NCBI RefSeq assembly: GCF_023684405.1 | Contig: NZ_JAGSOI010000006.1 | Location: 1 to 64,000, forward strand | Source: Methanococcoides seepicolus | GTDB taxonomy: Archaea > Halobacteriota > Methanosarcinia > Methanosarcinales > Methanosarcinaceae | Direction: 5' to 3' | Length of the DNA stretch: 64,000 nucleotides | Part shown: positions 34,310-55,189 of the stretch, in pieces | Position numbering within the stretch: the stretch's first letter is position 1 | Layout of the letters: every line of letters begins with the position of its first letter | Program-made: the position numbers and the translations under genes | Notes under the pieces: model-generated | Databases searched by the model: none | What the model was told of the DNA's origin: nothing | The model's input: only the letters and a program-made list of their open reading frames with translations

Positions 34310-34412
34310 TATCAGTTGTTCCATCTCTGGATTAATTGGATGGTGTGAACGACGATCAAAAAACATCAGCATCCGGATGTACCGGGTCTTTAATTATGAA
34401 GGAGTGATCAAA

Positions 34413-35429
34413 ATGACCGATTTAAACCCAAAAGAAAGATTATTGAACGCGTTAAACCGCGAACCAGTTGATAAAGTCCCGGTAGTCTCTGTAACACAGA
34501 CCGCTATAGTTGATCTTATGGATCAGACCGGTGCAGAGTGGCCTGAAGCTCATTCTGATGCAGAGAAGCTGGCAACACTCGCCGTAGCATCACACGAGAT
34601 CGCAGGTCTGGAAGCTGTGAGATATCCATATTGTCTGACAGTTCTTGCAGAAGCTATGGGTTGTGAAGTTAATATGGGAACAAAGAACAGACAACCATCT
34701 GTAACTGATCACCCATATAAAGGCGTTGACAACCTCGTAATGCCCGAGAACCTTCTTAGCAATGGCAGAATACCTGCTGTGCTTGATGCAACGAAGATCA
34801 TCATCGACAAAGTTGGAGATAAAATTCCTCTGGTAGCTGGAATGGAAGGACCTGTAACCCTCGCATCCGATCTTGTAAGTGTAAAGAAGTTCATGAAATG
34901 GTCTATCAAGAAACCAGATGACTTCGAGACTATCCTTGACTTTGCCACAGATGCATGTATAGTGTATGCAAATGCACTGGCAGATGCAGGTGCAGATGTA
35001 ATATGTGTGCCTGATCCTGTAGCATCCCCTGACCTTATGAACCCTGAAACATTTGACAAGATGCTTAAGCCAAGGCTTGCAAGGTTTGCAGAAGGGGTCA
35101 AATGTCCGATGGTGCTTCATGTTTGTGGAAATGTCACTCCTATTCTCGGTATGATGGCAGACTGTAAATTCGAGGGACTTAGCATTGAGGAAAAGGTAAC
35201 AGACCTTAGGGGAGCTATCAAAACTGTCGGAGACAGGGCTGTAATTGTTGGTAATGTATCCAGTCCGTTCACATTACTTTCTGGTGATGTGGAAAAGGTC
35301 AAAGCAGATTCAAAAAATGCCCTTGAAGATGGTGTTGCAGTTCTTTCTCCTGGATGTGGTATTGCACCAAATACTCCTGTAGATAACGTCAAGGCTTTGG
35401 TTGAAGCAAGGGACGAATACATTGCATAA
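34413..35429 (+). CDS. mtaA: methylcobamide:CoM methyltransferase MtaA
   Basis: MtaA carries the methyl group from the corrinoid on MtaC to coenzyme M, forming methyl-CoM. It belongs to the uroporphyrinogen decarboxylase-like fold. The zinc ligands are visible as the His and Cys of VLHVCGNVTP (about residues 234-236) and the Cys of LSPGCGIAPNTP (about 313). The 338-residue length is normal. I set the start at ATG 34413 because GGAGTGATC, a near-perfect ribosome binding site, lies five bases upstream; the frame is open further upstream but without support. The same fold serves methylamine pathways (MtbA), but the company of mtaCB makes the methanol enzyme the better call. Confidence 0.92.
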   Translation: MTDLNPKERLLNALNREPVDKVPVVSVTQTAIVDLMDQTGAEWPEAHSDAEKLATLAVASHEIAGLEAVRYPYCLTVLAEAMGCEVNMGTKNRQPSVTDHPYKGVDNLVMPENLLSNGRIPAVLDATKIIIDKVGDKIPLVAGMEGPVTLASDLVSVKKFMKWSIKKPDDFETILDFATDACIVYANALADAGADVICVPDPVASPDLMNPETFDKMLKPRLARFAEGVKCPMVLHVCGNVTPILGMMADCKFEGLSIEEKVTDLRGAIKTVGDRAVIVGNVSSPFTLLSGDVEKVKADSKNALEDGVAVLSPGCGIAPNTPVDNVKALVEARDEYIA

Positions 35430-35573: not shown

Positions 35574-37184
35574 ATGCGAACAGGAATTGCAATAGATCTT
35601 GGTACAAGTGGTTTCAGGGCACAAAAAATAGACCTTGGATCAGGTGAGATACAGAGAACTGTCATCACAATGAGAAATCCTCTGCCCGGTGCGAACGTTA
35701 TGGATCATCTGGATTTTGCCATGACATATGGTCAGGACAAAGCTCATGACCTTGTAATCAATGCTTTCATTCACATCCTTAATGAACTTGAACCGGAAGG
35801 TGGACTTGTTGAGAGAATCGCAATATGTGGAAATCCTATACAATTATCATTGTTCCAGGGAATTCCTATCGATGACCTTGCCTATGCAGGAGAGCGAAAA
35901 AAGAAGTTGATGAATATCGAGGAACAAAAAAGGAATGCTTGTATCATTGAAAGCACTCAGGTAAAAGGCCTTGAATTCCTTAATTGTAAAGTAGTTATTC
36001 CACCTGCAATCAAACACGAGGTCGGTGCAGATGCTCTTGCATTGATCGTAAAATCCGGAATGCTTGAATCAGAAAAGATATCCATTGCAACCGATTATGG
36101 TACTAATGCGGAAATGGCGTTAAAGGTTGGTAATGTCATCTTCACAGGTTCTGCAGCAGCAGGTCCTGCGCTTGAAGGTCAGGAGATCGGGGACGGAAGT
36201 ATTGCACGTCCATTTGTGATATCAGATGTTGAATTTAATAATGGGGATATATTGAATTACGTTCTCGATGAGGAAATGAACACGGTAAGTGGTTCCCTTG
36301 TTAACTACAAAAATGGGGCTGTTCTCAAAAATGGTGATTTGCATGCAATTGGCATCACAGGTACCGGTGTTATTGCACTTATCGATGAGGCCATAAAAAA
36401 TGGCATCATAAAATTACCAAATATAAATACGCCTGATAAAAAACTTTATCTTCAGGATGATCTACATTTCACAGAAAAAGACCTTGCTGAAGCGGGAAGG
36501 GCCATCGGTGCGATACGTGCCGGTCATGTGACATTATGCAATGCTGCGAATATTGCAATGGAAGATGTAGAGGTCGCATACATGTCCGGTGCTGCCGGTA
36601 CCTATATGGATGCGATAAAAGCTCATCGTATCGGCATGATACCTTATAATGTCTCAAAGATCTGCCAGATAGGGAATACTTCTCTTATCGTTGCAAGGGA
36701 GATACTTATTTCAGAAGAACGATTATGGGAGCTTCAGGAGATCGCAGTAGAGATAGTTGGCACACATGTAATGTTTGCAATGGATGAAGCATTCAAGGAC
36801 GCTTACATCCTTGAGCTTTCCTATTGGAACGAGGGTATGCCTTTCAAGACACTGAAAAAATATCTTAAGAAAAAAGGTCTTCCTACAATTGATGAAGTAA
36901 CTAAGGAGCCGGAAATCGAAAAAAGAGTCGAGAAGGACATTCCTGATCTTGGGAATGAAGGGCTTCATGTGCTCGACCAGATAGGTACATTTCTAGTAAT
37001 AGATATGGAAGGCTGTATCGATTGTAAGAAATGTGTGGACGTGTGTCCAAATAATGCATTGGAACAGGATGATCGGTCTGTAAGAATAAGAACTGATCTT
37101 TGTGATGGTGCACACTGTCAGAAATGTATCCATACATGTCCGGAAAATGTCCTCGACTGGCATCTTCTCAAAGTAGTGGAATAA
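35574..37184 (+). CDS. RamA-type ATP-dependent corrinoid reductive activase
   Basis: Corrinoid methyltransfer proteins drift to the inactive Co(II) state and need ATP-driven reduction to Co(I). This protein has the RamA layout. An N-terminal ASKHA-type ATPase fold opens with IAIDLGTSGFRAQKIDL and contains IATDYGTNAEMALKVG and MSGAAGTYMDA. At the C-terminus two [4Fe-4S] ferredoxin motifs, CIDCKKCVDVCPNNA (about residue 478) and CQKCIHTCPEN, pass electrons to the corrinoid. At 536 residues it is full length. The ATG follows AAGGTAATACT. It lies between mtaA and the sensor gene, so MtaC proteins are the likely clients, although RamA itself was described for methylamine systems. Confidence 0.9.
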   Translation: MRTGIAIDLGTSGFRAQKIDLGSGEIQRTVITMRNPLPGANVMDHLDFAMTYGQDKAHDLVINAFIHILNELEPEGGLVERIAICGNPIQLSLFQGIPIDDLAYAGERKKKLMNIEEQKRNACIIESTQVKGLEFLNCKVVIPPAIKHEVGADALALIVKSGMLESEKISIATDYGTNAEMALKVGNVIFTGSAAAGPALEGQEIGDGSIARPFVISDVEFNNGDILNYVLDEEMNTVSGSLVNYKNGAVLKNGDLHAIGITGTGVIALIDEAIKNGIIKLPNINTPDKKLYLQDDLHFTEKDLAEAGRAIGAIRAGHVTLCNAANIAMEDVEVAYMSGAAGTYMDAIKAHRIGMIPYNVSKICQIGNTSLIVAREILISEERLWELQEIAVEIVGTHVMFAMDEAFKDAYILELSYWNEGMPFKTLKKYLKKKGLPTIDEVTKEPEIEKRVEKDIPDLGNEGLHVLDQIGTFLVIDMEGCIDCKKCVDVCPNNALEQDDRSVRIRTDLCDGAHCQKCIHTCPENVLDWHLLKVVE

Positions 37185-37486
37185 CTTTCACGAAGTGAAC
37201 ATTGAATTATTTGCTCACACCCGTTGTACTGATGTACTGGATATAGATCTAAAAAGTAAACAGATTGGATCGAAGGAAGCTACTATAGATCTTAGATGTG
37301 AGCAATTTTGTTTATTCATTGATTTAAGATAATTCTTTCGTTCAGAAAGATCGTCAAAATATGGATATTCTATCTTTACGGAAGATAAGATATAAATCAT
37401 GGCTTGTTTACTTATAATAGGATTAAAAACAAATTCCATTATCAAAAACAAAAAATCGTTTAGATCAAAAAACGCAAAAACGGGAG
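37185..37486 (+). other. intergenic region with a long-range inverted repeat
   Basis: TTGCTCACA (37211-37219) is exactly complementary to TGTGAGCAA (37297-37305), enclosing 77 bases in which ATAGATCT occurs twice. A small stem CTTTC/GAAAG follows at about 37337-37351. No gene is visible. The region may end the activase transcript and hold the promoter of the sensor gene. Confidence 0.4.
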
Positions 37487-40400
37487 ATGTATAAGATATA
37501 CAGTTCCATGGAAAAGACCGGTAATATATCTGTCAAAATGACTTCATCTAAAGTTGTGTCTGATGAAATATCAGAACCTGATAGCTGTAGTTCTTTCTCT
37601 TTTTCCGATGATCCTGGAAATTATTTCGAGGCTATAGTAGCATCTTTGAAAGAAGCTCTCATGATACTTGATCTGGATCTGAACCTGATATATGCGAATG
37701 ATTCATTCTACAAAATGTTCAATGTTAAACCTGCTGAACTCTTGGAAAATGATGCTGACATATTTGTTGATTTCAAGAAAAATTCACCTGAACTGTTTGA
37801 CAGGCTTAGCAGAGTTTGTAAAGAAGGTTTCTTACTTGAGGAATTTGGACTGACCTATCCTTTTAGCAATGCCGGTACAATGTCTGTGCTGATCAACAGG
37901 AGGCAGATCATATGCGATGGCGGCTGTGTTGCTCTCGTTACCTTTGAATATATTGACGAATTGAAAACCTCGGAAGAGGGAATTATCCAATACGAAGGTC
38001 AATATTCAACGTTGGTCGAAAAAGGTAATGAAGGGGTAATTGTTGTCCTTGACAATGAAATACGGTATACAAATGAGAAGTTTTGTGAACTGACAGGATC
38101 GTCAAAAGACAATATCATTGGTTCGCCTTTCCTTGATCATATTTCACTTGAATATCGCAGAATGGTCTCCAAAAAATACAATAAATGTCTTTCAAGCAAG
38201 AAGAATGACTCCAATATTTATGAAGCAAATATTATTTCGCTTACTGAAGGTGAGATCCCTGTGGAGATCACTACTTCTTACATTGAATACGAAGGACAGT
38301 CTGCGGTAATGCTGAACTTAAATGACATTAGGGAAAAAAGAAAAGCAGAGAAAGCTCTTGTTGATACTGAAAAGAACTTCAGGATAATCTTTGAAAAATC
38401 TCCCATAGGTATAGTTCGTTTTGACCGAAAAGGAATTATAACGAATTCAAATGAAGTATTCAATGAGATATTCGATCACTTACGGGATGTGATCACAGGC
38501 TATAATGTCCTCGATCTTTTTAGTGACAAAGATGTTCGTAGCGATATAAGTGATGTGATCTCGGGAAAGATAAGGAACTATGAGAATGATGTTCACCTAA
38601 TTGTAAATGATAATAGTTCTATCTTGCATGTCACTTTCAGTTCTTTGATCGTAGATGGATCATTGCAGGGTGGAATGGGTATATTTGAAGATGTCACCCT
38701 GAGGAAGATGGGTGAACATTCTCTCCAGCTAAACGAGTCTCGTCTTGAGATACTTCTTGAACTCAACCAGATGTCTGATGAATCCATTGAAGATATATTA
38801 TATTTCACTTTGGAGGCTGCTGCAAGACTCACTCAGAGCAATATCGGTTACCTTGTCAGTGTCCGTGAAGACAACTCTTTTGATATGGTCTTCCTCCTTT
38901 TAACAGACGAAAAGGGTCAATACGAACTGAGCAAGGACCTGGGTGATTATCCGTTTGACATTTCCAGCAGGGCTATCAAAGTGAGCTCAAGTGGGAAATA
39001 TTTGCTTTCAAATTACCCGAATGATCTTTTTGAAATGGAAAAAGACCATAATATGACCGGTACGATCACACGCCATTTTGATATTCCGGTCTCCAATGAA
39101 GAAGGTGAGCGATTCGTTCTGGGAGTTGGCAACAAAGATTCTCTTTATGATGATCTTGATACTCGTAACCTGGCACTATTGATCCAGGAAATAACAAAAC
39201 TGATCGAGCATAGGGAAGCTGATGAAGCTTTGCGTGTATCGGAAGAAAAGTACTCCAATCTCGTTAAGAACGGGAATGACGGCATTGTCATAATTCGTGA
39301 TGATGTGCTGGGATTTGTAAATTCAATGTTCTGTGAGATTGTTGGTTTTACTCCTCAAAAGGTGCATAACTCCAGTTTTTCTTCTTATCTGTCACCTGAA
39401 TATCGGCGAATGGTGACTAAGCAGTTCTCGAAGATAATGGAAAAACAGAAGAGCAGCTCTAATAAATTCGAGGTCAATCTGCTTGATCGTAAGGGTGAAA
39501 CTGTTCCTGTTGAGATAAGCCCTTCACGCATATATGATCAGGGCAAGCCTGCTGTAATGGCTATTATACGTGACATAACTGAACAGAAAAAGAAAGAACA
39601 GGAACTGCTTGATTCACTGGAAGTACAAAAGGTATTGCAAACGGTTATCAAAAGCAGTCCGGCAATTGTATTTTTCTGGAATGCGCAGTCGGGATGGCCA
39701 GTTGAATTCGTTTCTGAGAACATCGATACATTTGGATATTCTCCGTCGGATTTTCTTTCTGGCAAACTACAATACGGTGACATTATTCACCCTTCTGATG
39801 CGGAAAGGGTGCATAGCTATTTTGCCCGGAAATTTGCAGAAAATGCTTCTGAATATCGTCTCGAATACAGGATAATCACCAGTTCTGATGATGTTCGATG
39901 GGTTGTTGAGAGGTCCACTCCGCAGTATGATGAGGAAGGTGATCTTGTGCATATACAGGGTATCATCATAGATATCACTGAGCGTAAGAGGATCAATCAG
40001 TTCCTGAACATTGAATCCGAGGTCGGTAATTTCTTCACTCCTTCAGGGGACCTTCAGGAAACCTTTGACCAGCTTCTGGAATTTGCTTTACATATAGAAA
40101 GTATTGATTCTGGTAGTCTCTACCTGATAGACAAGAATAATGGCGGACTGAACCTTATATCCCACAAAGGACTTTCGGAAAATTTTGTAAAAACTAATTC
40201 TCATTACGCAGCAGATTCCATGCAGAGTCGATTTTTCATGATGGGTTATCCGCTTTATAAAATGTATTCCGAGATCTATCCTGTGACAAAGCGTGATAAC
40301 AGGGTAGATGAAGGGCTGCTGGCAACAGCTGTGATCCCGGTGAAGTATCAAGAGGAAGAAGTGGCTGTTCTTTTCCTTGCATCGCGTACTGAATATGAAA

Positions 40401-40837
40401 TGCCGTACAATATTCGTACATCGGTAGAAACAGTTGCTGAACAGATGGGTTCCATCATCGGTCGCATTGAAACGGAAGTAGATATGCAAAAGAACCAGAA
40501 CGACCTTAAATCACTTGTTGATGGCATTGAGGATCTGATCTTTGTTCTGGACAGTGAGGGTTGTGTACTCTACAGCAATGAGGCAGTCTCGAAAAAACTA
40601 GCTTACTCAAAAGAAGAGATCACTGGTATGAATTTCATAAAAATACATCCGCATAATAAGGTACTCGAAGCAGCAAGTCTCTTTGGGGATGCACTTGCAG
40701 ATAACAAGATCGAGTTCAGGTTACCTTTGGTTACAGGTACTGGCATGCTTATGTCTGTGGAAACAAGATTGCAAAAGGGTAAATGGAATCGTCAGGATGC
40801 GATCATTGCTATCTGTCGGGAGGTTGGCAAAAATTAA
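37487..40837 (+). CDS. multi-PAS/GAF sensor protein without a kinase domain
   Basis: The 1116 residues consist of sensory domains only. By pattern I see PAS (about 45-165), PAS (170-285), PAS (290-405), a GAF-type domain (420-590), PAS (595-715), PAS with PAC (720-835), a second GAF (845-990) and a last PAS (1005-1113). Two PAS units (about 170-285 and 595-715) are clearly duplicates of each other, both with YRRMV and the ITTSYIEYEGQ/ISPSRIYDQGK pattern. No signal peptide or membrane helix and, strikingly, no histidine-kinase H-box or ATPase domain: the protein ends right after the last PAS. It lies between the activase and mtaC1, which suggests a cytoplasmic redox or ligand sensor for methanol genes. 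The start is uncertain: ATG 37487 has GGGAG too close, and ATG 37508 is an alternative. Confidence 0.82.
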   Translation: MYKIYSSMEKTGNISVKMTSSKVVSDEISEPDSCSSFSFSDDPGNYFEAIVASLKEALMILDLDLNLIYANDSFYKMFNVKPAELLENDADIFVDFKKNSPELFDRLSRVCKEGFLLEEFGLTYPFSNAGTMSVLINRRQIICDGGCVALVTFEYIDELKTSEEGIIQYEGQYSTLVEKGNEGVIVVLDNEIRYTNEKFCELTGSSKDNIIGSPFLDHISLEYRRMVSKKYNKCLSSKKNDSNIYEANIISLTEGEIPVEITTSYIEYEGQSAVMLNLNDIREKRKAEKALVDTEKNFRIIFEKSPIGIVRFDRKGIITNSNEVFNEIFDHLRDVITGYNVLDLFSDKDVRSDISDVISGKIRNYENDVHLIVNDNSSILHVTFSSLIVDGSLQGGMGIFEDVTLRKMGEHSLQLNESRLEILLELNQMSDESIEDILYFTLEAAARLTQSNIGYLVSVREDNSFDMVFLLLTDEKGQYELSKDLGDYPFDISSRAIKVSSSGKYLLSNYPNDLFEMEKDHNMTGTITRHFDIPVSNEEGERFVLGVGNKDSLYDDLDTRNLALLIQEITKLIEHREADEALRVSEEKYSNLVKNGNDGIVIIRDDVLGFVNSMFCEIVGFTPQKVHNSSFSSYLSPEYRRMVTKQFSKIMEKQKSSSNKFEVNLLDRKGETVPVEISPSRIYDQGKPAVMAIIRDITEQKKKEQELLDSLEVQKVLQTVIKSSPAIVFFWNAQSGWPVEFVSENIDTFGYSPSDFLSGKLQYGDIIHPSDAERVHSYFARKFAENASEYRLEYRIITSSDDVRWVVERSTPQYDEEGDLVHIQGIIIDITERKRINQFLNIESEVGNFFTPSGDLQETFDQLLEFALHIESIDSGSLYLIDKNNGGLNLISHKGLSENFVKTNSHYAADSMQSRFFMMGYPLYKMYSEIYPVTKRDNRVDEGLLATAVIPVKYQEEEVAVLFLASRTEYEMPYNIRTSVETVAEQMGSIIGRIETEVDMQKNQNDLKSLVDGIEDLIFVLDSEGCVLYSNEAVSKKLAYSKEEITGMNFIKIHPHNKVLEAASLFGDALADNKIEFRLPLVTGTGMLMSVETRLQKGKWNRQDAIIAICREVGKN

Positions 40838-40957: not shown

Positions 40958-41722
40958 GTGATCGATATTAATCCTCAACGCATATTAGTACGATATAATG
41001 TAAAAGTGGAAAAAGAAATGACTCCTGAAGAGGTGGCCGAGAAATTATTCCCTGTGGAAGAAAATATACGGGAGGTCGCAAAGGCTATCTTTGAAGGAGA
41101 TGAAGACGAGGTTGTGGAAAGTATCCAGAATGCGATCAATAATGGACTGGACCCACTGAACCTTATTAACAATGCACTGATGGTGGGTATGGAAATAGTC
41201 TCCACTCTTTATGATGACGGTGTTCTCTACCTTCCAGATGTCATAATTTCAGCGCAGGCAATGATGGAAGGTATCGAATATTGTAAAGAACATTTCGGTC
41301 AGGACCATGAATACAAGGGTAAGATCGTTTCCTATGTTGTGGAAGGGGACATCCATGATATTGGTAAGAAGATCGTGACCGTTCTTCTCAGGGCGAAGGG
41401 GTATGAAGTTGTAGACCTTGGAAAGGATGTCTGTGTGGAAGAGGTCATTGCGGCTGTCAAAAAGGAAAAACCCATTATGCTTACGGGAACGTCGTTAATG
41501 ACGACAACTATGATTGGTTTCAAGGATGTGAATTCCCGTTTGCTTGAAAGTGATATCAATGTACCTGTTGTGTGTGGTGGAGGTGCGGTAACACAGGATT
41601 TTGTATCCCAGTATGAACTTGGTCTTTATTGTGAAGAGGCTGCTGACGTACCAAAGATCGCAGATGCTATCATCAACGGCTTGAATATTAGCCAGCTCAG
41701 GAAGGAGTTCCATAAACACTGA
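40958..41722 (+). CDS. mtaC: methanol corrinoid protein MtaC, copy 1
   Basis: MtaC carries the cobalamin that accepts the methyl group of methanol from MtaB and hands it to MtaA. The N-terminal helical cap is followed by a B12-binding Rossmann domain. EGDIHDIGKKIV near residue 130 holds the His that ligates cobalt, and TGTSLMTTTM and CGGGAVTQDF line the nucleotide tail. It starts with GTG at 40958 after GGAGGGC, with ILVRYNVK aligning to copy 2. The two copies share roughly 55-60% of residues. mtaB1 begins 12 bases downstream after a GAGGAGG site. Upstream, CTTATCACAT occurs twice at about 40876 and 40898, a possible operator. Confidence 0.95.
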   Translation: MIDINPQRILVRYNVKVEKEMTPEEVAEKLFPVEENIREVAKAIFEGDEDEVVESIQNAINNGLDPLNLINNALMVGMEIVSTLYDDGVLYLPDVIISAQAMMEGIEYCKEHFGQDHEYKGKIVSYVVEGDIHDIGKKIVTVLLRAKGYEVVDLGKDVCVEEVIAAVKKEKPIMLTGTSLMTTTMIGFKDVNSRLLESDINVPVVCGGGAVTQDFVSQYELGLYCEEAADVPKIADAIINGLNISQLRKEFHKH

Positions 41723-41734
41723 GGAGGAATAGGT

Positions 41735-43117
41735 TTGAGTTTAAAACGTTATAATAAAATGGCTTATGATGACCTTGAAGATATGGTCTTTGGACATTCT
41801 ATCTATCCTGTTAAGACAGGTTTTGATCTGGAGATCGGGGCAGGATATACTTCAGCGGAAGTCAACTATGCACCAAGACCAGCAGCGGGTGAGTCTAAAG
41901 AGAAACTTATTGCAGAATACCAGAAGATCACAACGGATGTCCTGCAACGAATGGTACAGGTTGGTTTCCCTTCGGTGGTGCTTGAAACGGAACATGTGCA
42001 ACAAATGACCGTCAATCCGTCATGGGGTGCAGAGATAGCACATGAACAGAAGACCATTATGGAAGAGTTTTATGATGAATATGGCATCAAATGTGCATTG
42101 CGCCATACGCCTGCTGATATTCGAGGTGGAAAAGAATCCCTCGATCTTAGAGGCGATTCTTATGGTATGTTGCTGGAATCTTTTGAAGAGGTTGCTTCCA
42201 ATGGAGCTGACATGCTTTCCATTGAATCACTTGGTGGTAAGAGCGTCTTTGATTCATCAATATTAAGGAACGATATCTCAGGAGTGCTTTTTTCAATAGG
42301 TATCCTCGGCACTCTTGATGTGGAGTTCATATGGGAAGATATTAGCAAAATAGCAAAGAAACATGATGTTGTGGCTGCTGGAGATACTGATTGTTCTCAG
42401 GCTAATACTGCAATGTTCATTGCAGGTGGTCTACTTGACAGAAAACTTGCCCACACGCTTGCTGTTGTGACAAGAGCGGTTTCAGCACCGCGTTCACTTG
42501 CTGCCTATGAAGCAGGAGCTGTCGGTCCCGGTAAAGATTGTGGATATGAAAACACTATAATCAAGGCTATCGCTGGTGTCCCTATCTCACAGGAAGGAAA
42601 GGGATCAACTTGTGCTCACTCTGATCTCATGGGTAATCTCGCTATGCAATGTTGTGATCTCTGGTCCAATGAATCTGTGGAGTACCGTGGTGAGTTCGGT
42701 GGTACAAGCGTTCAATGTTGGGGGGAGACTCTATCTTATGATTGTTCCATGATGAATACGGCAATAGAGGCTGGATATGCGAAGGTCTTCAGGGATGTTT
42801 TCATGGTCTCAGATAGATATAGGGATTCTCAGGCATTCATACTTGCATTCGATAATGCTTATAGGATAGGTGAATCGATCGTAAAGGATGGTAATGATAT
42901 TTATCTACGTGCTAAGAATGCTGCGATCGAGGCATGTAACATCGTTGATGAAGGTTCTCGTGGACAGCTTGAACTTTCGCGCTTTGAGAAAGCATCTCTT
43001 GCAAAGGCGATCAAGTCCCTTCATTCACTTACTGATGAAAAGGATGTTTTCATTGAAGAGAATATGGACAAATTTTCAACTATGGAGAACTTCATACCTA
43101 AAAATTACGGTTACTGA
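41735..43117 (+). CDS. mtaB: methanol:corrinoid methyltransferase MtaB, copy 1
   Basis: MtaB activates methanol at a zinc site and transfers its methyl to Co(I) on MtaC. The zinc ligands of the characterised enzyme are a Glu and two Cys; these correspond to the Glu in LSIESLGGKSVF, the Cys in AAGDTDCSQAN and the Cys in GPGKDCGYEN. The start is a TTG at 41735 after GAGGAGG; this is supported by the alignment of its first residues (MSLKRYNKMAYD) with the ATG-started copy 2 (MAINRYTKMAYD). At 460 residues it is full length. Codons end more often in A or T than in copy 2, which hints at lower expression. Confidence 0.95.
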   Translation: MSLKRYNKMAYDDLEDMVFGHSIYPVKTGFDLEIGAGYTSAEVNYAPRPAAGESKEKLIAEYQKITTDVLQRMVQVGFPSVVLETEHVQQMTVNPSWGAEIAHEQKTIMEEFYDEYGIKCALRHTPADIRGGKESLDLRGDSYGMLLESFEEVASNGADMLSIESLGGKSVFDSSILRNDISGVLFSIGILGTLDVEFIWEDISKIAKKHDVVAAGDTDCSQANTAMFIAGGLLDRKLAHTLAVVTRAVSAPRSLAAYEAGAVGPGKDCGYENTIIKAIAGVPISQEGKGSTCAHSDLMGNLAMQCCDLWSNESVEYRGEFGGTSVQCWGETLSYDCSMMNTAIEAGYAKVFRDVFMVSDRYRDSQAFILAFDNAYRIGESIVKDGNDIYLRAKNAAIEACNIVDEGSRGQLELSRFEKASLAKAIKSLHSLTDEKDVFIEENMDKFSTMENFIPKNYGY

Positions 43118-43764
43118 AGTTTTCATTTTTATCTTTCATATCTTCATATTACGGCCCATTTTCTCTTTTTCTTTTCGTTACGATTGTCGTGCAATGAATT
43201 TTTCAGTCATCTACTCTCATTTTCTAGATTGGATCTTTGATGCCTCAATATGTAGTATTTAACTGTTTTGTATTATTCGAAGAAATATGAATTAATAATT
43301 ATATATAATATTTAGTTAATACTTTGTGCATATACATATTATTGTTTAATTTTGTTGATATAATAAAATGATCTTGAATTGTTATTTCCAGTTAATCCTT
43401 TTATTGATATCGTTTTCTTTTCATTTGACCAAAACTACACAATGATATTTAATATTTATAAATTTCTACTATAAAGTGTATATATTTCTATAAAATCAAT
43501 AGATATGTTTAAAAATAAGCATCAATAGCCTTTATTTATTAATATTAGTATCGATTAAAGATTTCCATTTTACAAATGGTTTATATATTAGTTATTTTTA
43601 AAGCTAACTTAATTATATTATATAAACGTATTTACTAAATTTATTTTGTTTGTTTTCGATATTGTTAATTTTATTATGTATTTTCGACATCAAGAAAGCT
43701 TATTTTTTCTCTATTTCACCTTTGCACTTTTTTTTAATCAAATCGTAATACATATATATAAAAT

Positions 43765-43790
43765 CATTTGAAAACAAATGTTTATATATT
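43765..43790 (+). promoter_or_regulatory. mtaC2 promoter: inverted repeat next to the TATA box
   Basis: CATTTG (43765-43770) and CAAATG (43775-43780) are an inverted repeat around AAAA, directly followed by the TATA box TTTATATAT (43781-43789). The 12 bases ATGTTTATATAT at 43778-43789 are identical to the mtaA promoter block. A start site near 43810-43815 is expected. Confidence 0.65.
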
Positions 43791-43808
43791 GGTATGAGAG
43801 ACGTTTGA

Positions 43809-43869
43809 ATAGGTTTTCAGAACGAAATCCTATGATTGGATCGAGGGTGGTATTCTTCCCAAGAAGAAT
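43809..43869 (+). promoter_or_regulatory. two hairpins in the mtaC2 leader
   Basis: The first stem pairs 43809-43818 with 43824-43833 (one T-T mismatch, AGAAC loop). The second pairs ATTCTTC (43852-43858) with GAAGAAT (43863-43869) around CCAA. The leader then runs through an A-rich stretch to GGAAGT before the mtaC2 ATG. Such structures may stabilise the message or tune translation. Confidence 0.5.
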
Positions 43870-43909
43870 GGCACTTCATTTATTATTAAAAAAACAAAGG
43901 AAGTAAAAC

Positions 43910-44680
43910 ATGACCAGTTTGGATATAGACCCCAGTGATATTCTGGTAAGATATAATGTGAAATTGGAGAAGGCAATGACGCCTAAAGACGCTGCAGCTG
44001 AACTTTATCCTAAGGATGAGTTATACAGACAAATTGCAGTAGCAATCTTTGACGGTGAGGAAGACGACGTTATCGAAGGTCTCGAAAAGGCCATCGCAGC
44101 AGGAAAGAACCCAATTGCTCTGATCGACGATGCTCTAATGGTTGGCATGAAAGTAGTTACTGATCTGTATGATCAGGGAACGATCTTCCTGCCAAACGTA
44201 ATGATGTCCGCAGATGCAATGCTCGACGGTATCGAGTTCTGTAAGTCACAGTCCGATGAAGCACCTGTTTCAAAGGGCAAGGTTGTCTGCCATGTTGCAG
44301 AAGGAGATGTTCACGACATCGGTAAGACAATAGTTGCTGCACTTCTCAGAGCAAACGGATATGAGGTAGTTGACCTTGGCCGTGATGTTCCTGTGGATGA
44401 AGTCATTGAAGCTGTCAAGGCAGAGAAACCTCTCATGCTTACAGGTACTGCACTGATGACCACAACAATGTATGCTTTCAAAGCAGTCAACGACAGGTTA
44501 CTTGAAGCAAGTCTTAATGTTCCATTCGCCTGTGGTGGTGGAGCTGTAAACCAGGACTTCGTATCTACCTATGATTTGGGTATTTATGGCGAAGAAGCTG
44601 CTGACGCACCTAAGATCGCTGACAAGATCCTTGCAGGATCTAGCATTAGTGCACTGAAAGAGGAATTCCACAAACACTGA
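43910..44680 (+). CDS. mtaC: methanol corrinoid protein MtaC, copy 2
   Basis: This is the second corrinoid carrier, with the same build as copy 1: a helical cap, then the B12 domain with the cobalt-binding His in AEGDVHDIGKTIV near residue 135, and TGTALMTTTMY. It starts with ATG at 43910 after AAGGAAGT. Codons such as AAC, ATC and CTT dominate, as in strongly expressed genes of methanogens, which suggests that this pair supplies most of the enzyme. mtaB2 follows after 13 bases with its own AGAGGTGA site, so the two form an operon behind the strong TATA promoter. Confidence 0.96.
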   Translation: MTSLDIDPSDILVRYNVKLEKAMTPKDAAAELYPKDELYRQIAVAIFDGEEDDVIEGLEKAIAAGKNPIALIDDALMVGMKVVTDLYDQGTIFLPNVMMSADAMLDGIEFCKSQSDEAPVSKGKVVCHVAEGDVHDIGKTIVAALLRANGYEVVDLGRDVPVDEVIEAVKAEKPLMLTGTALMTTTMYAFKAVNDRLLEASLNVPFACGGGAVNQDFVSTYDLGIYGEEAADAPKIADKILAGSSISALKEEFHKH

Positions 44681-44693
44681 AGAGGTGAGAAAA

Positions 44694-46079
44694 ATGGCAA
44701 TCAACAGATATACAAAAATGGCATATGATAGTGCAGATGACATGATCTTTGGTAAGTGTAAGCACCCTGTAAAAACAGGACTTGGACTCGAGATCGGTGG
44801 CGGATACACTACACCTGAAATTAACTATGCACCAAGGCCTGAAGCCGGTGCATCAAAAGAGAAGCTCGTCAAAGAATACCAGAGGATAACCACAGATATC
44901 ATGAACCGTATGGTCCAGGTAGGTTTCCCTGCTGTTGTCCTTGAGACAGAACACGTCGAGCAGATGACCAACAACCCAACATGGGGAGGAGAGGTCGCAC
45001 ACGCACAGAAGACCATCATGGAAGAGTTCCACGATGAATACGGCATCAAATGCGCATTAAGACACACCCCAGGTGATATCCGTGAAGACCGTGATTACCT
45101 TGATCTTAGAGGTGACAAGTTCACAGTTCTTATGGAATCATTCGAAGAAATTGCAGCAAATGGAGCTGACATGCTTTCCCTTGAGTCAATGGGCGGTAAG
45201 GAAGTATTCGACTATTCGATCCTAAGAAATGATGTACCTGGTATGCTTTATGCAATTGGCTGCCTTGGAACCATGGATATGGATTTCATCTGGCAGGAGA
45301 TCAGCTCTGTTGCAAAGAAGCACGGAGTAGTCTCCGCAGGTGACACTGACTGTTCCGAAGCAAACACTGCAATGTTCATTGGTGGCGGTCTTCTTGACAA
45401 GAACCTTGCACACACCCTTGCTATCATCGCAAGAGCTATCTCTGCACCAAGATCACTTGCAGCATATGAAGCAGGTGCTGTAGGGCCCGGTAAAGACTGT
45501 GGATATGAAAACACTATCATAAAAGCGATATCCGGTGTACCTATCTCACAAGAAGGTAAGACCTCCACATGTGCACACTCTGATGTCATGGGTAACGTTG
45601 TCATGCAGTGCTGTGACCTCTGGTCCAACGAATCGGTTGAATACCATGCTGAATTCGGTGGTACATCTGTCCAGTGCTGGGGAGAATCCCTTGCGTATGA
45701 CTGTGCTTTGATGAACACAGCAACTGCAACAGGTCAGGAAAAGACTCTCAGGGACCTCTTTATGCTTTCTGACAAGTACAGGGACCCACAGGGCTATGTT
45801 CTTGCATATGACAACGCATACCGCGTGGGTGAAGCTATTGTCAAGGACGGTAATGACATTTACCTCCGTGCAAAGAACGCTGCACTCAAGTCAGTAGAGA
45901 TCATGGAAGAAGGAATAGCTGGCAAGCTCGAAATGACCAAGTTCGAAAAGGGCGCCCTTGCAGACGCAAAAGCTGCACTTATGGCACTCACAGACGACCA
46001 GGATACTTTCATGAGCGATTGCATGACCAAGTACAAGGAAGAAGTTAAGGTCTTCCTGCCAGAGAACTACGGTCTCTAA
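44694..46079 (+). CDS. mtaB: methanol:corrinoid methyltransferase MtaB, copy 2
   Basis: The product is a full-length MtaB (461 residues from ATG 44694) and is about three quarters identical to copy 1. The predicted zinc ligands are the Glu in LSLESMGGKEVF, the Cys in AGDTDCSEAN and the Cys in GPGKDCGYEN. It splits the C-O bond of methanol and methylates the Co(I) of MtaC2. I prefer ATG 44694 over the in-frame GTG at 44685, because the GTG lies inside the AGAGGTGA ribosome binding site. The gene ends 32 bases before a strong hairpin. Confidence 0.96.
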   Translation: MAINRYTKMAYDSADDMIFGKCKHPVKTGLGLEIGGGYTTPEINYAPRPEAGASKEKLVKEYQRITTDIMNRMVQVGFPAVVLETEHVEQMTNNPTWGGEVAHAQKTIMEEFHDEYGIKCALRHTPGDIREDRDYLDLRGDKFTVLMESFEEIAANGADMLSLESMGGKEVFDYSILRNDVPGMLYAIGCLGTMDMDFIWQEISSVAKKHGVVSAGDTDCSEANTAMFIGGGLLDKNLAHTLAIIARAISAPRSLAAYEAGAVGPGKDCGYENTIIKAISGVPISQEGKTSTCAHSDVMGNVVMQCCDLWSNESVEYHAEFGGTSVQCWGESLAYDCALMNTATATGQEKTLRDLFMLSDKYRDPQGYVLAYDNAYRVGEAIVKDGNDIYLRAKNAALKSVEIMEEGIAGKLEMTKFEKGALADAKAALMALTDDQDTFMSDCMTKYKEEVKVFLPENYGL

Positions 46080-53546: not shown

Positions 53547-54011
53547 TCACACATTATAATTGTCTTCCTCTGTAAGCGATCTCATCCACCTCTTCAAAAG
53601 ATGGTGGTCCTTTGTATCGAAAATTAAAGGATCGATCTGAAGGATCAATCTGGAATCAGATGCCATTATCGAGTCATTGGTCTGTTCCATGAACTTAATA
53701 ACTGACCTGAGATCATTTTCAAGTATGAGATACTCAAGGCTATCTATCAGTACAATGCCGTCATCTACCTTTTTGATAAAATTATCTATTGTAGGATGAA
53801 GTTTGAACTATTCTGCAGGATCTACCGAAGGACATTCTGATCCTTTGGCCTTCGTAAGCCAGACAATGGGCGTTTTTGTAATATTGTACTTGCTCCTTAT
53901 CTTTGCAGGATTTTCTCTTGTTATGCAAAGTCCAGGTCTTCCTTGCTTGACCATGGTGGCGAATATTTCATAAGAAGTATTCAGATCGCCACTATCCTGT
54001 ATTAGGTACAA
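53547..54011 (-). CDS. DUF835 protein with one in-frame TAG (possible pyrrolysine)
   Basis: Read without regard to TAG, the frame encodes a complete DUF835 domain of 154 codons. The first half has YLIQDSGDLNTSYEIF, GLCITRENP and TPIVWLTKAK. A TAG at 53808-53810 follows SVDPAE. The frame then continues with FKLHPTIDNFIKK, VLIDSLEYLI and LILQIDPLIFD to a TGA at 53547-53549. Conservation continues on both sides with no other fault. In Methanosarcinaceae UAG can be read as pyrrolysine, so a full-length protein is plausible; the TAG is also one base from Leu codon TTG. The start is a TTG at 54011, ten bases inside the response regulator gene, with no strong ribosome binding site. Confidence 0.65.
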
Positions 54012-55189
54012 CTTGCTTCAAGTTTTGGAGTATCTTTTATTTCTCTATTCTCTTCGATAGAAGGAGCAATCAAAAGTCCGCTTAGTTCGGAAATATCCTG
54101 AAGTGTGACAACAAGTCCTTTCTTATTCTCGTTCTCCATTATGACAGAGGTTGCTATGTTAAGATCGATACAGTTCCCATCTTTTTTAGATAGTCCTACA
54201 ATAAGGTTATCCTGATCAGCAAATTCGAACAATTCATTATTGCAAGTTATTGTGGATATCGAATTATCGATAATCTCATCATTGGCATACCCAAGAAGTT
54301 TTGTAGCTTTCTCATTAGCCGTAACGATGTTTTGTTCGCTGTCAAGTACAATTGTTGCAATTGGTGAGATCCTGGTAAGCAGATTAAGGTGTTCATTAGC
54401 TTTTTTAAGCTCCTCTTCCACGATCTTACGAGCGGTTATATCCTCTCCTGAACAGAGAATTTCCGCTTTGTTCCCGTCCTTATCCTTCAGTTTGATAGCA
54501 TTCCATGAAAGCACTTTCTTCTGCCCTGACTTTGCAATAATGCTCATTTCGAACACAGAACATTCTTCTGTTTCCACCTCACCTTGAAAGTCGTTAAAGC
54601 GTTTTTTTATGAACTCTCTGTCTTCCACAGGGATAAAATTATCAAAATAGTTTATACCGATCAGTTCCTCATCGGAACATTCGAGTATCGTTTTCCCCTT
54701 TTTGTTGATCTCGACAATATTCTGATCCTTGTCGATTATTAGTATCATGACACCTGCAACATCGAGATATTTCTGGGCAGTATCCCTTTCTTTGCGTACC
54801 ATATCCTGTTGTTGTTTCAGCTTCAACAAAGAATGTACCCTTGTCTTCAGTTCCAGCATATCAACAGGTTTGGAAAGGAACTCATCGGCTCCTGATTCAA
54901 TACCTTTTATCTTGTCTTCTTTTTCAGATAATGCTGTAACAAGAACTACAGGGATGAATTTCGTGCTGTCATCTTTCTTGAGGATCTCACAGGTTCGGTA
55001 GCCGTCCATTTTCGACATTAGGACATCGAGAAGGATCACGTCAGGCTCAAAATCCTTTACTTTTTCAAGGGCTTCAACACCATTAGTAGCCATTGTAAGT
55101 TCATAATCACTTGAAAGGTATGCTTCCATTAGCTCAAGGTTCCATGGTTCATCATCGACAACAAGTATCTTTGGAAGCAATTCACTCAT
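54002..55189 (-). CDS. response regulator with two PAS domains
   Basis: The N-terminal receiver domain (about residues 1-125) has KILVVDDEPWNLELM with the acidic pocket, the phospho-acceptor Asp in VILLDVLMSKMDG (about 55), the Thr in VLVTALSEKED and the Lys in LSKPVDM. Two PAS domains follow at about 140-260 and 265-375. No output domain is present in this frame. The next gene starts in a shifted frame at its end and encodes DUF835, so the two may once have been one protein. A GGAGTC site precedes the ATG. It is the first gene of the signalling operon. Confidence 0.88.
   Translation of the reverse strand: MSELLPKILVVDDEPWNLELMEAYLSSDYELTMATNGVEALEKVKDFEPDVILLDVLMSKMDGYRTCEILKKDDSTKFIPVVLVTALSEKEDKIKGIESGADEFLSKPVDMLELKTRVHSLLKLKQQQDMVRKERDTAQKYLDVAGVMILIIDKDQNIVEINKKGKTILECSDEELIGINYFDNFIPVEDREFIKKRFNDFQGEVETEECSVFEMSIIAKSGQKKVLSWNAIKLKDKDGNKAEILCSGEDITARKIVEEELKKANEHLNLLTRISPIATIVLDSEQNIVTANEKATKLLGYANDEIIDNSISTITCNNELFEFADQDNLIVGLSKKDGNCIDLNIATSVIMENENKKGLVVTLQDISELSGLLIAPSIEENREIKDTPKLEASCT

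Follow-up and report, generated by a model that had tools for sequence, protein, structure and literature searches.

A kinase-less PAS/GAF sensor is encoded beside its own lineage of MtaC-type corrinoid proteins in methylotrophic methanogens

Analysis of a 64,000-nucleotide stretch of Methanococcoides seepicolus DNA (hereafter, the window) revealed, within a methanol methyltransferase cluster, a gene for a PAS/GAF sensor devoid of any recognisable output domain, the mta-linked orthologues of which are found next to mtaC in every case examined, in seven genera. A partnership between the sensor and an MtaC-type corrinoid protein is strongly implied by these sequence comparisons. The reading that we favour, tentatively and with a probability of about 0.42, is that the sensor is an intact, output-less, cytoplasmic protein which has an MtaC-type corrinoid protein of its own as partner and transmits its signal through protein contact.

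Results

The sensor consists of six PAS and two GAF_2 stretches identified with Pfam, distributed as follows.

37487-40837, + strand: kinase-less PAS/GAF sensor, 1116 aa, ATG start at 37487 and stop at 40837 (Pfam, orthologues, dN/dS)
37622-37957, + strand: PAS1, about aa 46-157, in the variable N-terminal region (Pfam, conservation by segment)
37988-38341, + strand: PAS2, about aa 168-285 (Pfam, alignment)
38354-38716, + strand: PAS3, about aa 290-410, absent from some orthologues (alignment, gap fraction up to 0.33)
38735-39232, + strand: GAF1, about aa 417-582, homologous to the second (haem) GAF of MsmS
39248-39589, + strand: PAS4, aa 588-701 (Pfam)
39632-39982, + strand: PAS5, about aa 716-832, PAS_3 type, the most conserved domain (dN/dS 0.03-0.07)
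40049-40459, + strand: GAF2, aa 855-991 (Pfam)
40487-40819, + strand: PAS6, the terminal PAS, about aa 1001-1111, with 5 residues left before the stop (orthologue alignment)

This architecture agrees with the first-pass annotation, which had described a sensor of 1116 residues with six PAS domains, two GAF domains and no kinase. In a Pfam search extended to E ≤ 10, the sensor matched neither HisKA, HisKA_2, HWE or another H-box dimerisation domain, nor the HATPase_c catalytic domain, the Response_reg receiver domain, an HTH or other DNA-binding domain, or indeed any recognisable output domain, and the protein showed no site at which an output partner might bind. The 120-bp gap separating the sensor gene from mtaC1, which is 96% conserved in close relatives, holds no remnant of a kinase, as had also been remarked from the first reading. 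The terminal-PAS part of the core-family profile matches a solved PAS structure (PDB 3mjq); a predicted structure of residues 712-1116, based on a four-row alignment, reached a pLDDT of 32.5 and was discarded. The 19-residue Kyte-Doolittle mean peaks at 1.44, and the sensor, which has no transmembrane-like segment, is therefore probably cytoplasmic.

The possibility, raised in the same annotation, that the protein is a histidine kinase which lost its C-terminus in this strain retains a negligible probability. Orthologues are present in all 11 Methanococcoides genomes (the host and ten others) and in six further Methanosarcinaceae genera, the names of which are provisional. Their lengths span about 915-1246 aa, with most of the variation in the N-terminal half, and all of them end 0-9 residues beyond the same terminal PAS; core-family members more widely have a tail of 0-24 residues past this domain (median of 3). 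The roughly 110 extra residues of the other Methanococcoides clade, by eye one more PAS domain, are N-terminal, so that the number of domains varies at the N-terminus only. None of the orthologues of the seven genera carries a kinase, and no kinase family was matched by at least two of the 50 core-family members in a Pfam scan. Furthermore, the dN/dS of the sensor relative to close orthologues is 0.16-0.19 (about 0.18), which indicates that the gene is real, and purifying selection is strongest in the core, with values of 0.03-0.11 in PAS4, PAS5 and GAF2. Kinases appear only in more distant relatives, which share the GAF-PAS part and carry HisKA and HATPase domains (L057, L117, L118 and L122-L125, from Methanococcoides, from a further Methanosarcinaceae genus, G070, and from other families). 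A remote ancestor thus probably had a kinase, and the kinase loss, if any, is old and fixed. The uniform ends of the orthologues, the lack of a kinase-bearing orthologue and the purifying selection rule out a truncated histidine kinase, and both the absence of a kinase and the completeness of the sensor are settled for practical purposes. One of the kinase-bearing relatives from a distant family (L125:217-5482) is encoded in a compact operon that also specifies an MtaA-like methyltransferase and an MtaC-like corrinoid protein.

The gene order around the sensor is mtaA - ramA - sensor - mtaC1B1 - mtaC2B2, in keeping with the methanol-gene neighbourhood implied at the outset.

34377-35429, + strand: mtaA, methylcobamide:CoM methyltransferase (NF040654)
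35574-37184, + strand: RamA-type corrinoid reductive activase (TIGR04270)
37205-37315, + strand: candidate structured RNA in the ramA-sensor intergenic region, conserved across Methanococcoides
40958-41722, + strand: mtaC1, GTG start, sensor-linked MtaC lineage, DxHxxG motif kept, Asp at position 94
41735-43117, + strand: mtaB1 (full-length alignment with Methanosarcina barkeri MtaB, 2i2x)
43910-46079, + strand: mtaC2 and mtaB2, second methanol methyltransferase pair, with MtaC2 in the ordinary MtaC lineage

MtaC1 passes the NCBIfam MtaC threshold and aligns over its full length with the MtaC of 2i2x (chain B). MtaB1 keeps the expected residues at the zinc-ligand positions; a pseudo-catalytic MtaB1 was rejected, given the full-length match to 2i2x and no loss seen. 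The interval between mtaB1 and mtaC2 (43118-43909, 792 bp), of similar length in close relatives, is probably a long mtaC2 leader. Farther along the window, the region 54002-55189 on the minus strand encodes a response regulator, by eye a receiver followed by PAS-like parts with no evident output, which resembles the output-less response regulators of methanogens (PMC5847659). Another contig of the same assembly (C69 of G000) is a near letter-for-letter repeat of the window from 33.9 to 64 kb, probably reflecting assembly redundancy; the contamination rating of the assembly is 4.4%.

In several genera the sensor gene has ramA/cobW on one side and mtaCB on the other, a location that would also suit an accessory of the methyltransferase complex, such as an assembly scaffold, a redox relay or a gate for the RamA reactivation of MtaC, with no role in transcription. 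We consider such a function improbable: PAS/GAF chains are typically signalling domains, the mta loci of Methanosarcina have no sensor, and Methanolobus and Methanomethylovorans possess a second ramA-cobW-mtaCB locus without one.

The candidate RNA upstream of the sensor gene is 84-100% identical in all 11 Methanococcoides genomes, synonymous sites being near saturation between the two clades, and contains an outer stem formed by TTGCTCACA and TGTGAGCAA. No covariation was seen in the element and Rfam yielded no match to it; a weak covariance-model match (E=0.012) lies directly upstream of the sensor orthologue in another genus (G022). The element is a possible leader RNA or small RNA. A second copy (L195, G004:C14:57736-57866) is located away from methanol genes, between genes that by eye encode an SRPBCC-like protein and an MFS-like transporter.

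In each of the 41 mta loci with a sensor, its gene is at most 4 kb from mtaB and has an mtaC as a close neighbour. The mtaCB pair lies 22-204 bp downstream of the sensor gene in Methanococcoides, Methanohalophilus, Methanosalsum, Methanohalobium and G022; Methanomethylovorans has a lone mtaC, without mtaB, 22-40 bp after the sensor gene, and in Methanolobus a lone mtaC, likewise without mtaB, is found 69-353 bp upstream of it. Betaine loci, which encode a BCCT transporter, an MtgB-like protein and a second corrinoid protein, contain a paralogous sensor and a lone MtaC-like gene, again without mtaB, within 0.2-2.4 kb. Orphan mtaC genes (loci L041-L043, L048, L050, L072-L084, L087 and L088) were seen only beside a kinase-less sensor and all retain DxHxxG. 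The apparently lone MtaC of L153 was discarded as an ORF-picking artefact, mtaB being present at G102:534847-536229.

The MtaC proteins encoded next to the sensor form a lineage of their own. In a tree of 74 MtaC, one branch (SH-aLRT of 99%) splits 31 sensor-adjacent proteins from the 43 others, which include each second MtaC and all those of Methanosarcina. The sensor-adjacent MtaCs that come from Methanosalsum- and Methanohalobium-like genomes occupy intermediate positions, so that the separation depends on a rapidly built tree. All 44 sensor-linked proteins have Asp at position 94, within the LPxV motif, and the 56 others all have Asn there. The sensor tree contains the same groups as the MtaC tree, and the sensor and the orphan MtaC of betaine loci both branch with Methanolobus/Methanomethylovorans (SH-aLRT of 99 and 96, respectively), which suggests that the two genes were copied jointly. 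Distances between sensors correlate with those between adjacent MtaCs (partial correlation of 0.79 given the second MtaC; 0.38 for the reverse), although linked genes inherited as a block share their history, so that congruence of the trees is no proof of contact.

The association extends beyond the methanol loci. An Mta- or Mtg-type gene is found within 6 kb in 56 of the 64 full-length core members, including all members of the mta clade, and, for comparison, the regions 6 kb to either side of all nine B12-binding_2 genes account for 3.3% of the sequence of a 2.58-Mb Methanococcoides genome (G006). The proximity of sensor and corrinoid genes in seven genera, and in betaine and other loci, is far beyond the 3% expected by chance, related species not being independent observations. 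The other 8 core members (850-aa and some Methanosarcina types) have no corrinoid gene within 6 kb, so that the core can exist without one. The same PAS-GAF core, kinase-less where scanned, is also present in proteins of about 820-850 aa (L049, L092-L094), 330-347 aa (L102-L105) and 590 aa (L107-L111), the last of these, from Methanosarcina-like genomes, being encoded 0.9-4 kb from FilR1/Msr genes.

Sensor genes and known regulator genes tend to occupy different mta loci. Up to a distance of 9 kb from mtaB, an Msr/FilR1 gene is present in none of the 41 mta loci that carry the sensor and in 11 of the 19 that do not; the latter are mostly from Methanosarcina, in which Msr/FilR1 regulators flank sensor-free mta operons. 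This exchange is a correlation over few lineages and only suggests a different wiring. The first-pass interpretation holds for the lack of a kinase and for the link to methanol, and fails for the lost C-terminus; the direct contact with a transcription factor that it had envisaged may occur, but no FilR1/Msr gene is linked to the sensor within the distance searched, and what is conserved next to it is a gene for a corrinoid protein.

The same loci bear on the main competing explanation, according to which the sensor makes no contact with MtaC but binds a small ligand and controls mta transcription either via an unlinked regulator, of the Msr/FilR1 type or another, or via PAS-PAS pairing with an unlinked histidine kinase. 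There are precedents for such a route: MsrA/MsrB activate mtaCB1, and MsrA/MsrB and MsrD/MsrE control mta operons in Methanosarcina acetivorans (PMC11218639), and MsmS and RdmS signal to regulators without receiver domains (PMC6944256). Methanococcoides, moreover, encodes six FilR1 proteins and several PAS/GAF kinases. Nevertheless, FilR1 is missing from the vicinity of mtaB in the sensor-bearing loci, and a ligand sensor accounts neither for an MtaC lineage specific to the sensor nor for the orphan MtaC. We thus regard this explanation as rather unlikely, though a serious competitor, and favour the pairing with MtaC.

The homology of GAF1 to the haem GAF of MsmS (aa 283-598 versus 458-772, E=3e-23) raises the question of whether the sensor is an MsmS-like haem redox sensor. 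The haem of MsmS is presumably attached at Cys656 and His702; the M. acetivorans protein of L139 indeed has Cys at 656 and His at 702. According to the literature, MsmS binds haem through a single cysteine (PMC8351635). At the aligned places, equivalents of the linking Cys656 and of the His at position 702 are absent from the sensor and its orthologues, neither GAF of the sensor contains a cysteine, and several orthologues lack GAF1 altogether. The search for haem-binding residues proposed in the earlier annotation thus came out against them, and MsmS-type haem is unsupported, since the equivalent residues are missing and the GAFs are cysteine-free. A haem sensor of this kind appears very improbable.

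Discussion

If the sensor is paired with MtaC, as we favour, the conserved C-terminal module PAS5-GAF2-PAS6 would form a complex with the MtaC-type corrinoid protein encoded alongside, that is, with MtaC1 in M. seepicolus and with the orphan MtaC in Methanolobus, Methanomethylovorans and betaine loci. The input would be the methylation or redox state of the partner corrinoid, which may depend on how much methanol is supplied, on turnover by MtaB/MtaA and on reactivation by RamA. The PAS/GAF scaffold would relay the change by protein-protein contact, not by phosphotransfer, and its target could be an unlinked regulator or the methyltransferase machinery. We infer the physical complex, the corrinoid state as signal and the signalling output from the pattern of gene linkage and conservation. 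In Methanococcoides, where MtaC1 is accompanied by a full-length MtaB1, it may be an ordinary isozyme. A broader proposal, which we hold with somewhat less confidence than the pairing itself, is that of a two-protein corrinoid sensor in which an MtaC paralogue, devoid of its own methyltransferase in some genera, serves as a probe of substrate state, its methyl or redox state being read by the kinase-less scaffold, and which might control both methanol and betaine methyltransferase systems in methylotrophic methanogens other than Methanosarcina.

As far as we could find, regulation of methanol methyltransferases is known only from Methanosarcina, where it proceeds via Msr regulators; in the marine and halophilic methylotrophic genera, another device seems to operate at the mta locus. 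Should a corrinoid protein be what is sensed, the flux of methylotrophic methanogenesis would be gauged at its first step, directly from the catalyst, and a B12 protein would have been recruited as a signalling subunit. A testable role thereby emerges for the orphan mtaC genes, which annotation would otherwise list as methanol corrinoid proteins lacking an enzyme. We found no description of the mta-linked sensor family or of orphan mtaC in the openly accessible literature; the pairing of the sensor with an MtaC lineage, the orphan mtaC partners and the exchange of sensor and regulator at mta loci are new here.

We define the Mta-linked kinase-less PAS/GAF family by a terminal PAS_3-GAF-PAS core encoded beside an mtaC of the sensor lineage, and the M. 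seepicolus sensor belongs to it. The nearest characterised proteins are MsmS (MA4561) and RdmS (MA0863) of M. acetivorans, which, like the sensor, are cytoplasmic PAS/GAF chains encoded beside corrinoid methyltransferase genes, have similar PAS_3 and GAF domains, and, being without an H-box, stand outside ordinary two-component pathways (PMC6944256; PMC11784639). However, they keep a C-terminal kinase-like ATPase, which binds and hydrolyses ATP, and a covalent haem, whereas the sensor has neither a kinase domain nor the haem residues; they are tied to methyl sulfide, and the sensor to methanol and MtaC. The sensor family is thus one step further removed, the ATPase also being absent. Output-less REC-(PAS/GAF)n proteins, which occur in methanogens (PMC5847659), likewise combine sensory domains with no recognisable output, but carry a receiver domain, which is lacking in the sensor, and the sensor is linked to one operon type. 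The Msr/FilR1 proteins share with the sensor a location near mta loci (in Methanosarcina) and regulate mtaCB isozymes (PMC11218639), yet they are DNA-binding regulators unrelated to it in sequence and absent near sensor-bearing mta loci. Finally, MtaC1 aligns over its full length with the MtaC of 2i2x and shares its DxHxxG motif, but belongs to a separate lineage that is found beside the sensor only and is marked by Asp94 in place of Asn in the LPxV motif.
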